The notes under the pieces are model-generated. The model was not told the DNA's origin. It saw only the letters and a list, made by a program, of their open reading frames with translations, and did not search any database. Shown here one piece after another: positions 1-31,978 of a stretch of DNA of 40,942 bases (positions are counted from its first letter, which is position 1; the number at the start of each line of letters is the position of its first letter). The stretch covers positions 1 to 40,942 of the forward strand of contig JANWJX010000039.1 of NCBI GenBank assembly GCA_025451725.1, in the 5' to 3' direction. A program made the translations under genes and the position numbers. This DNA is from Allostellaceae bacterium (GTDB lineage: Bacteria > Pseudomonadota > Alphaproteobacteria > ATCC43930 > CGMCC-115725).

Positions 1-662
1 CCGCGTCGATCTGGGTTCTTCCCGTCGTCATCGCCATCACCTTTCACGAGGCGGCGCACGGCTTCGTCGCCCACCGTCTCGGCGACGACACCGCGTGGCG
101 CATGGGCCGCGTCACCTTCAACCCGCTGAAGCATGTCGATCTCTTCGGCACCATCCTCATGCCGGCCTTTCTCCTGTTGATCCGCGCGACGTTTCTCTTC
201 GGCTATGCCAAGCCGGTGCCGGTCGATTTTCGCGCCCTCCGCCAGCCGCGCCGCGACATGGTCTGGGTCGCCGCGGCGGGTCCGGTGATGAACATCGCGC
301 TCGCCCTCGCCGCCGGGCTGGTCTTTCACGCCGTCGACTACCTGCCGCCGAGGGTCGACCAATGGGTCGGGCTGAACCTCGAGAACGCCATCGTCATCAA
401 TGTCGTCCTCGCGGTCTTCAACATGATCCCGCTGCCGCCGCTCGATGGCGGCCGAGTCGCGGTCGGGCTTCTGCCGCGATTTCTGGCCTTGCCGCTGGCC
501 CGACTCGAACGCTATGGGATTCTGATCGTGATCGGGGTGCTCTTTTTGCTGCCGTGGCTGGGCCGCGGGATCGGAGTCGACCTCGACATTGTCTACGTAA
601 TCATTTATTGGCCGAGCAATATGATCGTGCAAGGTATCGGTTGGTTGACCGGCGTATCATGA
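1..662 (+). CDS. Site-2 protease family (M50) metalloprotease, 5' truncated
   Basis: Membrane zinc protease of the site-2 family, which cleaves substrates inside or next to the bilayer. The reading frame runs in from the left edge (first full codon at base 3), so the true start lies outside the window. About 219 residues are visible. The zinc motif HEAAH is at fragment residues 15-19. The second conserved motif, NMIPLPPLDGG with the third metal ligand Asp, is near residues 140-150. Several hydrophobic segments surround them. There is no PDZ domain in the visible part, as expected for the short S2P branch rather than RseP. The stop overlaps the scpA start (ATGA), so the two are probably translationally coupled. 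Pairing of an S2P gene with scpAB is seen in many bacteria. Substrate unknown. Confidence 0.85.
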   Translation, partial: ASIWVLPVVIAITFHEAAHGFVAHRLGDDTAWRMGRVTFNPLKHVDLFGTILMPAFLLLIRATFLFGYAKPVPVDFRALRQPRRDMVWVAAAGPVMNIALALAAGLVFHAVDYLPPRVDQWVGLNLENAIVINVVLAVFNMIPLPPLDGGRVAVGLLPRFLALPLARLERYGILIVIGVLFLLPWLGRGIGVDLDIVYVIIYWPSNMIVQGIGWLTGVS

Positions 663-28347: not shown

Positions 28348-29955
28348 TTAGCCCCGGCGGCCCGAGCGCCACAGTTTGTACGTGATGCTGTCGTGCAGGG
28401 CGTTGTAGGAGGCGTTGATGATGTCGGGCGAGACGCCGACCGTCGACCAGCTCTCGCGTTTGTCGCTGGTCTCGATCATCACGCGCGTCACCGCCTTGGT
28501 GCCGGCCTGCGGCGACAGGATACGCACCTTGTAGTCGGTGAGCTTGATTTCCTCGAGCTCGGGATAGGTCGCGGTCAGTGCCTTGCGTAGCGCGGTGTTG
28601 AGGGCGTCGACCGGTCCGTCATGGCTTTCGGCGACTTCAAGGAAAGTCTGGTTGTTCACCGTGCCGTTGACCGTGGCTTCCGACACGGTGACGAGATCGC
28701 CCTTGGCGTTCCAGCGCCGTTCGTCCATCACGCGGTAACGCTGCACCCTGAAATATTCGGGCACGCTTTCGATCATCCGCCGGGCCAAGAGTTCGAAGCT
28801 CGCTTCGGCGCCGTCATAGGCATAGCCGTTGAACTCGCGCTCCTTCACCTCATCGAGCAACGCGCCCAGCTTCGGGTGCTTGGCGTCGATGTCGAAGCCG
28901 GCGTCGCGCAGCCGCGACAGGATGTTCGAGCGCCCGGCCTGATCCGACACCAGGATATGACGCTGGTTGCCGACTTTCTCGGGCGGCACATGCTCATAAG
29001 TGCGCGGGTCTTTCTCAACTGCCGAAACGTGAAGCCCGCCTTTATGGGCGAAGGCGGCGTCGCCGACATAGGCGGCGTGCCGGTTGGGCGCGCGATTGAG
29101 CAGCTCGTCGAGGAGGCGCGAGACATGGGTGATTTTGTGCAGTGCGTCGGGCGCGATGCCGGTCTCGAACCGCGACGCGTAGTCCTCCTTCAACATCAGC
29201 GTTGGGATCAACGAGACCAGATTGGCGTTGCCGCAACGCTCGCCGAGTCCGTTCAGCGTGCCTTGGATCTGCCGCACGCCGGCGCGGATCGCGGCCAGCG
29301 TGTTGGCGACGGCGTTCTCCGTGTCGTTATGCGCGTGAATGCCAAGCCGGTCGCCCGGAATCTGCTTCGCAACTTCGCCGACGATGCGCTCCACCTCGTG
29401 GGGCAGGGTGCCGCCGTTGGTGTCGCACAGCACCATCCAGCGCGCGCCGGCGTCGAGCGCCGCCTTGAGGCAGGCGAGGGCGTAGTCGGACTTGGCTTTG
29501 TAGCCGTCGAAGAAGTGCTCGGCGTCGAGCATCGCTTCGCCCTGTTTGACCGCGGCCGCGACGGACTCCTTGATGAGCGCGAGATTTTCGTCGAGCGAAA
29601 TGCCGAGCGCGACATCGACATGGAAATCCCAGCTTTTGCCGACGAGGCACGTCGCCGGCGCCTTCGCGCCGAGCACGGCGGCGAGGCCGGGATCGTTCGA
29701 TGAACTGCGGCCCGGGCGCTTGGTCATGCCGAACGCGACCAGCTTCGCGTGCTTCAATGCTGGCGGCTCGGCGAAGAACGCCGTATCGGTCGGATTGGCG
29801 CTAGGCCAGCCGCCTTCGATGTAATCGAGGCCGATGCCGTCGAGCGCGGTCGCGATCTGGCGCTTGTCGTGGACGGAAAAATCGACGCCCTGGGTCTGCG
29901 CGCCGTCGCGCAGCGTGGTGTCGAAAAGATAGAGACGTTCGCGGGCCATGGTCAT
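28348..29955 (-). CDS. cimA: (R)-citramalate synthase
   Basis: Condenses pyruvate and acetyl-CoA to citramalate, the threonine-independent route to 2-oxobutyrate and isoleucine. It is 535 aa. The HMGL-like catalytic domain has LFDTTLRDGAQTQGVDFSVHDKRQIATALDGIGLDYIEGGWP, LGIHAHNDTENAVANTLAAIRAGVRQIQGTLNGLGERCGNANL and FAHKGGLHVSAVEK. The C-terminal LeuA-type allosteric domain starts near RYRVMDERRWNAKGDLVTVSEATVNGTVNNQ. The pattern DGAQTQG and length separate it from LeuA. AGGAAG lies four bases before the ATG. The leader carries an unusual promoter, small ORF and hairpins. Confidence 0.93.
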   Translation of the reverse strand: MTMARERLYLFDTTLRDGAQTQGVDFSVHDKRQIATALDGIGLDYIEGGWPSANPTDTAFFAEPPALKHAKLVAFGMTKRPGRSSSNDPGLAAVLGAKAPATCLVGKSWDFHVDVALGISLDENLALIKESVAAAVKQGEAMLDAEHFFDGYKAKSDYALACLKAALDAGARWMVLCDTNGGTLPHEVERIVGEVAKQIPGDRLGIHAHNDTENAVANTLAAIRAGVRQIQGTLNGLGERCGNANLVSLIPTLMLKEDYASRFETGIAPDALHKITHVSRLLDELLNRAPNRHAAYVGDAAFAHKGGLHVSAVEKDPRTYEHVPPEKVGNQRHILVSDQAGRSNILSRLRDAGFDIDAKHPKLGALLDEVKEREFNGYAYDGAEASFELLARRMIESVPEYFRVQRYRVMDERRWNAKGDLVTVSEATVNGTVNNQTFLEVAESHDGPVDALNTALRKALTATYPELEEIKLTDYKVRILSPQAGTKAVTRVMIETSDKRESWSTVGVSPDIINASYNALHDSITYKLWRSGRRG

Positions 29956-29978
29956 TCTGCTTCCTGTGCCGCCCGATC

Positions 29979-30064
29979 GCGGCCCGGGATGGTTTGGCCG
30001 CTGCTACCGGACGTTGGTACGGTGCTCCCAACGCGATGCACTCCCGGCCTCCGCAGAGACCGGG
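29979..30064 (-). promoter_or_regulatory. Structured cimA leader RNA (three hairpins)
   Basis: Read on the minus strand: hairpin 1 has arms CCCGGTCTC (30056-30064) and GAGGCCGGG (30043-30051), 9 pairs with one G-U, capped by TGCG, a UNCG-class tetraloop. Hairpin 2 has arms GTTGG (30028-30032) and CCAAC (30013-30017). Hairpin 3 has arms GCGGCC (29996-30001) and GGCCGC (29979-29984). The 3' arm of hairpin 1 can also pair, with one bulge, with the CCCGGGCC inside hairpin 3, giving an alternative fold. I do not match it to a known riboswitch. No poly-U tract follows. Confidence 0.5.
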
Positions 30065-30099
30065 TGGCAAATTCGCAGAATCAACGGCTTAGACGTCAT
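30004..30099 (-). CDS. Putative leaderless leader peptide of cimA (31 codons)
   Basis: ATG at 30099 to TAG at 30004, 31 codons; the peptide starts MTSKPLILRICHPV and ends EHRTNVR. The ATG lies about 7 bases after the -10 box of the promoter upstream, so the mRNA would begin at or next to the AUG with no ribosome binding site. Codons 13-19 form hairpin 1 of the leader. Residues 6-10 (Leu-Ile-Leu-Arg-Ile) are rich in branched-chain amino acids, which would fit attenuation of an isoleucine gene. It might instead be chance: no classical run of regulatory codons and no terminator are seen. Confidence 0.4.
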   Translation of the reverse strand: MTSKPLILRICHPVSAEAGSASRWEHRTNVR

Positions 30100-30105
30100 G
30101 CCGGC

Positions 30106-30134
30106 AGAGTAAGTTCCGGCCGGAATCCTGTCAA
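30106..30134 (-). promoter_or_regulatory. cimA promoter with spacer palindrome
   Basis: Minus strand TTGACA (30129-30134) and TACTCT (30106-30111) with a 17-base spacer. Six of six and four of six positions match consensus. Within the spacer lies the perfect 12-base palindrome TTCCGGCCGGAA (30114-30125). A protein bound there would block polymerase, so this reads as a repressor operator. It lies in the gap after cysS and gives cimA transcription independent of the upstream genes. Confidence 0.6.
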
Positions 30135-30153
30135 CTTTGGTGGCCCGCGTTAA

Positions 30154-31524
30154 CTACACCGCGCGGCGCCATTCAGTTTTGCCGCCCGGCTTGTCCTCGA
30201 GAACGATACCGCGGATCGCCAACTCGGTACGAATGCGGTCGGCCTCGGCGAAATTCTTTGCTTTGCGGGCATCGAGCCGCTGCACGATCAGCGCCTCGAT
30301 CTCGGCGGCCTCGTCGGTCGGGCCCTTGAGCCACGCGTTCGGGTCCCGCTGCAACAGGCCGAGGATCGCGGCGCTGGCGCGCAGTTCGCCGGCAAGCCGC
30401 GCCTTGTCGGCGTCGGTCGTTGCCTTGTTCAGTTCGTTGAGCAGTTCGTGGAGCGCGGCCAGCGCCAGCGGCGTGTTGAGATCGTCGTCGAGCGCCGCTT
30501 CGAATTCTGGCGACATCCCGCCGCCGGCGGATGCCGGCGCATCGCGCAGCGCGAGATAGAACCGGTCGAGCGTATGCTTGGCCTGCTCGAGCCGCTCGCC
30601 GGTCCAGTCGAGGGGATCGCGATAGTGGCTCATCAGCATGGCGTAGCGTGCCGCCTCGCCAGGCGCGTCGTTCAGCACGTCGCGGATGGTGCGGAAATTC
30701 CCAGCCGACTTCGCCATCTTCTCGCCGTCGACCGTGACGAAGCCGTTATGCAGCCAGTAGTGCGCAAATTGCTTGCCGCCATGCGCGCAGGTGCTTTGCG
30801 CGATTTCGTTCTCATGATGTGGAAAAATGAGATCGAGCCCGCCACCGTGAATGTCGAACGTCTCGCCGAGATGCGCCTCGCTCATCGCCGAGCACTCGAT
30901 ATGCCAACCGGGGCGGCCGCGGCCCCACGGCGACTCCCAGCCGGGCAGGTCGGGCGGCGACGGCTTCCACAGCACGAAATCGCCGGGATCCTTCTTGTAG
31001 GGCGCGACTTCGACCCGGGCGCCGGCGATCATTTCGTCCCGAGAGCGGCCGGAGAATTTGCCGTACTCGGGATCGCTCGCGACGCTGAACAGGACATGGC
31101 CTTCGGCGCGATAGGCGTGTTCCGACGCGATCAGCGTCTCGATCATTTTGATGATCGGGCCGATATGCTCGGTGGCGCGCGGCTCGACCGTCGGCGGCAG
31201 GCAGCCGAGCGCGGCGACGTCCTCGTGAAACGCCTTGGCGGTTCGCTCCGTCAGGGTGCGGATGTCTTCGCCATTGGCCTTGGCCGCGGCGTTGATCTTG
31301 TCGTCGATGTCGGTGATGTTGCGGACATAGCGCACATGCGCGTCGCCGTAACGTCGGCGCAGCAGCCGGAACAGCACGTCGAACACGATGACCGGCCGCG
31401 CGTTGCCGATATGGGCGAAATCGTAGACCGTCGGGCCGCAGACATACATGCGGACATTCGCGGGATCGATCGGCTCGAACGCTTCCTTGCGGCGGCCCGA
31501 TGTGTTGTAGAGCTGCAACGCCAT
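30154..31524 (-). CDS. cysS: Cysteinyl-tRNA synthetase
   Basis: Charges tRNA-Cys; class I synthetase of 456 aa. The ATG gives [51 protein letters not shown], with the zinc Cys in YVCGPT and the HIGH-like HIGN. Further zinc ligands are in [10 protein letters not shown] and [11 protein letters not shown]. The KMSKS motif appears as [10 protein letters not shown]. The DALR anticodon-binding helices and C-terminal domain are present to the end. It follows the osmC gene by one base. The gap to cimA holds the cimA promoter. Confidence 0.97.
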
Positions 31525-31525
31525 G

Positions 31526-31978
31526 TTAAGCCGCAATCGTCGCTTCGTGACGCACCGGAAAATTCACCGAATTGGCAATGAAGCATTCGTCATGCGCCTG
31601 CGCGTGCGCCGCCTCGGCTTTCGTGCGGTCGGCACCGGGCGCGAGCGTCACGCGGGGATGCAGCACCACGTCGGTGAAGCGCATCCGCTTGTCCTTGATT
31701 GCCATCGTGGCTTCGGCATGGTCTTCGTAGGCGATGACCACGATGCCGGCGCGGGCACACACGGCGAGATAGCTCAGCATGTGGCAGGTCGAGAGCGAGA
31801 TCAGCAGCAGGTCTTCGGGATTGTGCAGTTTCGGATCGCCACCGAACGCGGCGTCCGCCGACGCCTTGTAGGTCGGCTTGCCCGGCACCGCGACGCTGTA
31901 CTCGCGCGAGTAACTCTTGTAATCGCGCGTCTCGCCGCGCCAGGAAATCGTCGCCTGGTATGAATGGGTGTGGGCCAT
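31526..31978 (-). CDS. OsmC-family peroxiredoxin-like protein
   Basis: 150-aa thiol peroxidase of the OsmC/Ohr fold, which reduces organic hydroperoxides. The two reactive cysteines are in [13 protein letters not shown] and [15 protein letters not shown]. The N-terminal beta domain [24 protein letters not shown] and the substrate-loop [15 protein letters not shown] pattern identify the YhfA/OsmC-like branch. The ATG ([13 protein letters not shown]) is chosen because the open frame upstream is a shadow of glnS. It lies 10 bases after the glnS stop and 1 base before cysS. Confidence 0.9.

Follow-up and report, generated by a model that had tools for sequence, protein, structure and literature searches.

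A putative isoleucine-sensing leader before cimA belongs to a leader-peptide family found beside isoleucine-related genes in alphaproteobacteria

In Sinorhizobium meliloti, trpL/rnTrpL is a leaderless ORF at the first AUG of its transcript (PMC10117765, PMC7298713). The window analyzed here, a 40,942-nucleotide stretch from an Allostellaceae bacterium, carries a leader before the citramalate synthase gene cimA that likewise has a leaderless leader ORF and, as proposed below, ribosome-mediated control of an amino acid gene. trpL senses tryptophan at the trpE leader, whereas the cimA leader has one invariant isoleucine codon and no U-tract terminator; the likeness to trpL drawn in an earlier note on this DNA holds for architecture and goes no further. 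Classical ilv attenuators, of the Caulobacter ilv leader and Escherichia coli types, share with the cimA leader a leader peptide, an isoleucine codon and alternative hairpins. Such attenuators (Caulobacter ilv leader: PMC4117421) have tandem codons and a Rho-independent terminator, whereas the cimA leader has neither a run of regulatory codons nor an intrinsic U-tract terminator. Both the 2:3 and the 3:4 pairings are predicted for it.

Other described leaders resemble it in part. The leader CDS of Caulobacter crescentus ileS, CCNA_03934, is translated and was mapped by ribosome profiling (PMC4117421). Like many of the putative leaders described below, it is a small CDS before ileS in an alphaproteobacterium; the text consulted calls it a leader CDS and mentions no family and no cimA. 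By analogy, CCNA_03934 is likely to be the ileS branch of the Arg-Ile-x-x-Pro family reported here. In the actinobacterial LEU element, leucine codons pair with the Shine-Dalgarno (SD) sequence of leuA (PMC1262725). It resembles the cimA leader in that codons of an upstream ORF (uORF) can pair with the downstream SD or start region and no terminator is obvious. The LEU element, however, has a leucine codon run and a pseudoknot, no sequence relation between the two is evident, and long-range pairing at cimA is predicted only in the window's genome and one relative. The uORF of the ilvB-II motif in Corynebacterium is described as likewise conserved and as controlling a branched-chain amino acid operon, but phylum, gene and sequence differ (PMC10272879).

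In the window, a 198-bp gap on the minus strand leads from cysS to cimA and contains a promoter, a 31-codon ORF, three hairpins and a ribosome binding site (RBS). The window's genome (G000) was compared with three other genomes of its genus (G001, G002 and G003), and alignment A4 holds 18 sequences of the wider family. Coordinates are those of the whole stretch, and the features are as follows.

30154–31536, minus strand: cysS (TIGR00435, 504 bits against a cut-off of 340), the gene upstream, which ends before the leader promoter
30129–30134, minus strand: −35 box TTGACA, identical in G003 and G002
30114–30125, minus strand: palindrome TTCCGGCCGGAA, 12 bp, within the promoter spacer and considered incidental
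30106–30111, minus strand: −10 box TACTCT, which is TACTCT in G003 and TAGTCT in G002
30004–30099, minus strand: putative leaderless leader-peptide ORF MTSKPLILRICHPVSAEAGSASRWEHRTNVR, 31 codons, start ATG at 30097–30099, stop TAG, frame kept in G003 and G002
30070–30075, minus strand: CGA AUU, the Arg-Ile codons, conserved in 18 of 18 sequences of A4; AUU is the proposed sensing codon
30043–30064, minus strand: hairpin P2 (hairpin 1, segments 1:2), CCCGGTCTC-TGCG-GAGGCCGGG, 9 bp with loop TGCG
30033–30036, minus strand: TCGC, possible partner of GCGA at 30073–30076 in a weak stem, P1, predicted to fold around P2
30012–30033, minus strand: hairpin CGTTGG...CCAACG, pairing kept in G003 and last pair G-U in G002
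29971–30012, minus strand: long hairpin (segments 3:4), GTCCGGT:ATCGGGC plus GCGGCC:GGCCGC
29996–30000, minus strand: segment 3, CGGCC, predicted in G000 and G003 to be able to pair with segment 2, GGCCG (30045–30049), if P2 is blocked
29944–29965, minus strand: cimA SD sequence AGGA (29962–29965) and start codon(s), with ATG at 29953–29955, identical in three species
28348–29955, minus strand: cimA, citramalate synthase (TIGR00977, 662 bits against a cut-off of 450)

The promoter boxes are 17 nt apart. TACTCT matches TATAAT at three of six positions, which accounts for the silence of a consensus promoter scan on it. The leader ATG stands 6 nt past the −10 box, at the expected +1, and TTGACA starts 35 nt before it; the arrangement TTGACn-17-TAnnnT-4..9-ATG occurs once in the whole window. 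The promoter, ATG, 31-codon ORF, 9-pair hairpin, two further hairpins and RBS listed by the earlier note are all present as it gave them. With the gap 88–89% identical to that of G003 and the arrangement unique in the window, promoter, ORF, hairpin and RBS exceed chance. No terminator-like site was found within 29700–30500 by a terminator scan. An RNA-family library search matched the gap and the leader RNA to no Rfam family, so a riboswitch or other Rfam family was rejected; this is consistent with the suggestion of the earlier note that the RNA may be undescribed. No further copy of the gap was found in the window's genome (assembly about 61% complete), and a dispersed repeat or mobile element was rejected on this basis.

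Of the four species sampled from the genus, three have the leader. The gap is retained in full in G003. G002 keeps the promoter, the hairpins, the RBS and the ORF with its start and frame, one codon shorter, and the first 26 nt of its leader barely align. In G001 the leader is absent and cysS abuts cimA. An opposite-strand RidA-family gene (Pfam PF01042; L010:2190-2618) lies between cysS and the cimA leader in G002. Upstream of ilvI, the genus shows no such leader. Between G000 and G003, identity at fourfold sites of cimA and cysS is 57–58%. The identity of the gap is higher, which argues for constraint on the leader, yet gaps are conserved generally here (72–85% identity in other comparable gaps of the window).

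Pairing is conserved within the leader. The earlier note had called for compensatory changes in the stems, and in hairpin 1 every stem position pairs in all three species that have the leader, one double compensatory change included. The long hairpin carries the ORF stop codon in its 5′ arm and ends 5 nt before the SD; pairing in its outer stem survives three one-sided changes, and one inner pair is lost in G002. In the 58 family members whose P2 stem reaches 6 bp or more, inner positions are paired in 93% of cases, compared with 77 ± 1.4% once the 3′ arms are swapped, the observed value being somewhat inflated by choice of the best 3′ end. P1 (GCGAAUU with downstream sequence) shows modest enrichment family-wide. 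When the RNA is folded past a ribosome stalled at AUU, GGCCG from P2 joins CGGCC in the long hairpin in G000 and G003, a pairing that is not clear in G002; the SD was not consistently opened in these three folds.

Within the ORF, isoleucine and leucine codons stand near the start of the predicted peptide (LILRI), in agreement with the Leu-Ile-Leu-Arg-Ile of the earlier note, which overlooked the decisive CGA-AUU pair upstream of hairpin 1. GCGAAUU and CCCGG are nearly invariant in A4 (18 sequences). Third codon positions show no excess of the changes between G000 and G003 inside the ORF, so that selection beyond Arg-Ile may act on the nucleotide sequence and not on the peptide. Sequestration of the start site by the first ORF codons (ATTCTGC:GCAGAAT) was also modeled. 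The pairing is strong in G000 and G003 and different in G002, and 16–19% of shuffled 5′ parts fold as low, which is not significant; it is kept as a bare possibility.

A covariance model (R1) was built from the G000, G003 and G002 leaders. Over the family-level group of the window, R1 found these three as the only genuine matches. Other weak matches there, where inspected, were read as chance, and full-length matches in G003 and others (L130 and similar) were rejected on inspection; L130 overlaps an opposite-strand 493-aa ORF that by eye resembles a lysyl-tRNA synthetase. Over 385 genomes of the class, R1 matched three species of one genus from another family, in which a 35-nt core recurs with two mismatches inside an in-frame ORF, SIARISRPVSAEAG (RISRPVSAEAG). 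This leader precedes a gene for a protein with a class I tRNA ligase (IleRS-type) anticodon-binding domain. The core DNA pattern occurs at about 50 places in 42 genomes, compared with about ten for a reversed control, and at the places inspected, short ORFs with RISRPV(x) at their end stand immediately before ileS or precede a small gene.

A second model (R2), built from 18 sequences and run over the 385 class genomes, matched 66 genomes at E ≤ 0.02; ten or eleven matches with E up to 0.02 were non-leaders on inspection. After removal of duplicates and non-leaders, the family has 67 distinct members in 32 family-level groups, with non-leader removal, group count and neighbor tally done by hand. 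Its hallmark is a leaderless ORF with Arg-Ile-x-x-Pro (CGA AUU), followed by a CCCGG...CCGGG hairpin. There is one invariant isoleucine codon and no codon run; Arg-Ile and the later Pro are the most constant residues, and residues 3 and 4 vary. In 49 of 52 non-training members an in-frame ATG occurs within 25 codons before Arg-Ile; the other two frames give 5 and 4. Of 50 non-training members, 27 have TTGAC 24–44 nt upstream of the leader ATG, compared with 1.3% of random positions, a figure favored by choosing the ATG partly by −35 score, which does not favor the in-frame count; in both tests shared ancestry limits the independence of the members. Where TTGAC is present, training members included, it most often lies 35–37 nt from the ATG, so the family leaders are leaderless or nearly so. 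The window leader has E 2.8e-9 under R2 as a training sequence. It has the in-frame leaderless ATG, TTGAC 35 nt upstream (within the 35–37 class), a CCCGG...CCGGG hairpin 8 nt downstream of the first AUU base, and an isoleucine-related neighbor, cimA (TIGR00977). The earlier note had recognized the leader and missed its membership of this wide family, found mainly before ileS and an ACT-like gene.

Downstream of the 67 members are ileS directly (28), an ACT-like gene alone (28), ACT-like gene and ileS (2), ACT-like gene and cimA (2), cimA (1), an IleRS-like gene (1) and ileS further away (1); four are unresolved (L284, L285, L315 and L335 have no assigned downstream gene). The small gene is labeled ACT-like because its matches to ACT domains are weak (E 0.03–0.05, below cut-off). 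In G004 and G014, which belong to another genus of the window's family and were absent from model training, the order is leader, ACT-like gene, cimA (L290, L291), and the ACT-like protein may be a partner in the regulation of citramalate synthase. A second family member, MVTVRGFARRISGPVLA (L289; G000:C14:12077-12137), stands before ileS in the window's genome and is followed by a pyrimidine-rich stretch. G075 has tandem model matches before its ACT-like gene (L320:1462-1524 and 1662-1722). In one genus (L184, L185, L186), the gene 3′ of the leader encodes a protein of 387 aa that has an anticodon-binding domain of the class I tRNA ligase kind and no catalytic-domain match in Pfam. In other members the ORF often stops inside the P2 loop, whereas the cimA leader ORF continues past P2 and ends in the long hairpin; the branches may therefore differ in output.

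A parallel was found for leucine. The pattern YTGCGACTTAGCNNCCC occurs at seven places in the 385 genomes, six of them directly before leuA. In G001 the leuA leader has LRLSIP and in G009 it has LRLSRP; R2 also returns two leuA leaders. Leaders L197, L198 and L234–L239, from several alphaproteobacteria, share CTG CGA CTT AGC (Leu-Arg-Leu-Ser) before leuA. The comparison suggests Arg-Leu-Ser for leucine beside Arg-Ile-x for isoleucine. A general alphaproteobacterial leader code is conceivable and is put forward tentatively: one sensor codon after a fixed CGA (AUU at ileS, the ACT-like gene and cimA; CUU at leuA), with a hairpin a fixed 8 nt later that a stalled ribosome would mask. It would be a single-codon, terminator-free class of attenuator spread among genes of one pathway.

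The cysS-cimA gap is probably a ribosome-mediated isoleucine attenuator. By sequence comparison, its promoter, ORF frame, Arg-Ile codons and P2 are conserved, and it belongs to a family found beside isoleucine genes. Transcription would begin at or beside the leader ATG, and the leader would therefore be translated without an SD site. When charged tRNA-Ile is scarce, the ribosome would stall with the AUU of Arg-Ile in its A site. CCCGG, the 5′ arm of P2, starts 8 nt downstream of the first AUU base, and a ribosome of the usual footprint with AUU in its A site would cover it. With the leading edge of the ribosome over the first bases of this arm, P2 could not form, and the freed 3′ arm (GGCCG) would pair with CGGCC of the long hairpin, weakening the hairpin beside the cimA SD and allowing cimA expression. 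With enough isoleucine, the ribosome would pass, P2 and the long hairpin would form, and cimA would be damped. Stalling and its dependence on isoleucine are inferred; as there is no U-tract terminator, so is the output step, which may be translation or Rho-dependent termination.

The attenuator reading is favored by the leader frame and hairpins kept in G000, G003 and G002, by the isoleucine-related neighbors of the family, by its in-frame ATGs and covarying P2, by the second member before ileS in the window's genome and by the profiled C. crescentus ileS leader CDS (PMC4117421). Against it count the single invariant isoleucine codon, the lack of an intrinsic terminator, the absence of a third-position bias in the ORF changes between G000 and G003, the missing leader in G001, the unclear 2:3 pairing in G002 and the SD that does not open consistently in folds. 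Stalling could instead be caused by a nascent Arg-Ile-x-x-Pro arrest peptide, perhaps sensing another signal, rather than by tRNA-Ile charging. Proline is known in arrest motifs in general, and the constancy of Arg-Ile and the following Pro beside variable residues 3 and 4 would suit such a peptide. This is unlikely, as the neighbors are isoleucine-related and leuA leaders have leucine at the same place (CGA CTT AGC), as a tRNA sensor predicts. Nucleotide-level conservation of the core, with GCGAAUU and CCCGG nearly invariant, would also fit a conserved RNA (CGAAUU and P2) bound by a protein, tRNA or small molecule, the ORF being secondary. The excess of in-frame ATGs (49 of 52 outside the training set; 5 and 4 in other frames), the promoter at fixed spacing and the absence of an Rfam match make this quite improbable.

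Two further readings dispense with the leader peptide. The earlier note proposed two-level control of cimA, by translation of a leaderless leader peptide, which the comparative evidence supports, and by a repressor at the perfect 12-base palindrome inside the promoter spacer. The palindrome is present (30114–30125). Perfect 12-bp palindromes number 21 across the window, this one included. Neither relative that keeps the leader preserves the palindrome, which is interrupted in G003 and missing from G002, so it does not rise above chance. Of the features whose conservation in relatives that note had made decisive, the stems and ORF frame are conserved and the spacer palindrome is not. A repressor acting there, with the remainder an ordinary 5′ UTR, would draw on the position of the palindrome between −35 and −10 and is highly improbable given how common and poorly conserved it is. 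Equally remote is a conserved promoter and 5′ UTR that regulate nothing, with the ORF a by-product of leaderless transcription. The leader is missing in G001 and other window gaps are also conserved (72–85%), as this would allow, but the same ORF and hairpin recur before isoleucine genes in 32 family-level groups.

A literature search, with most subscription papers outside its scope, found no description of the leader family or of a cimA leader, and the novelty of the family is provisional. One RNA/peptide element would link isoleucine synthesis (cimA) with tRNA charging (ileS) across a bacterial class. The system is small and can be found by sequence search, which suits it to tests of how one starved codon may switch a gene without a terminator. 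It also offers a first clue to the role of the small ACT-like protein, whose gene comes after many of these leaders and in two species separates leader from cimA.
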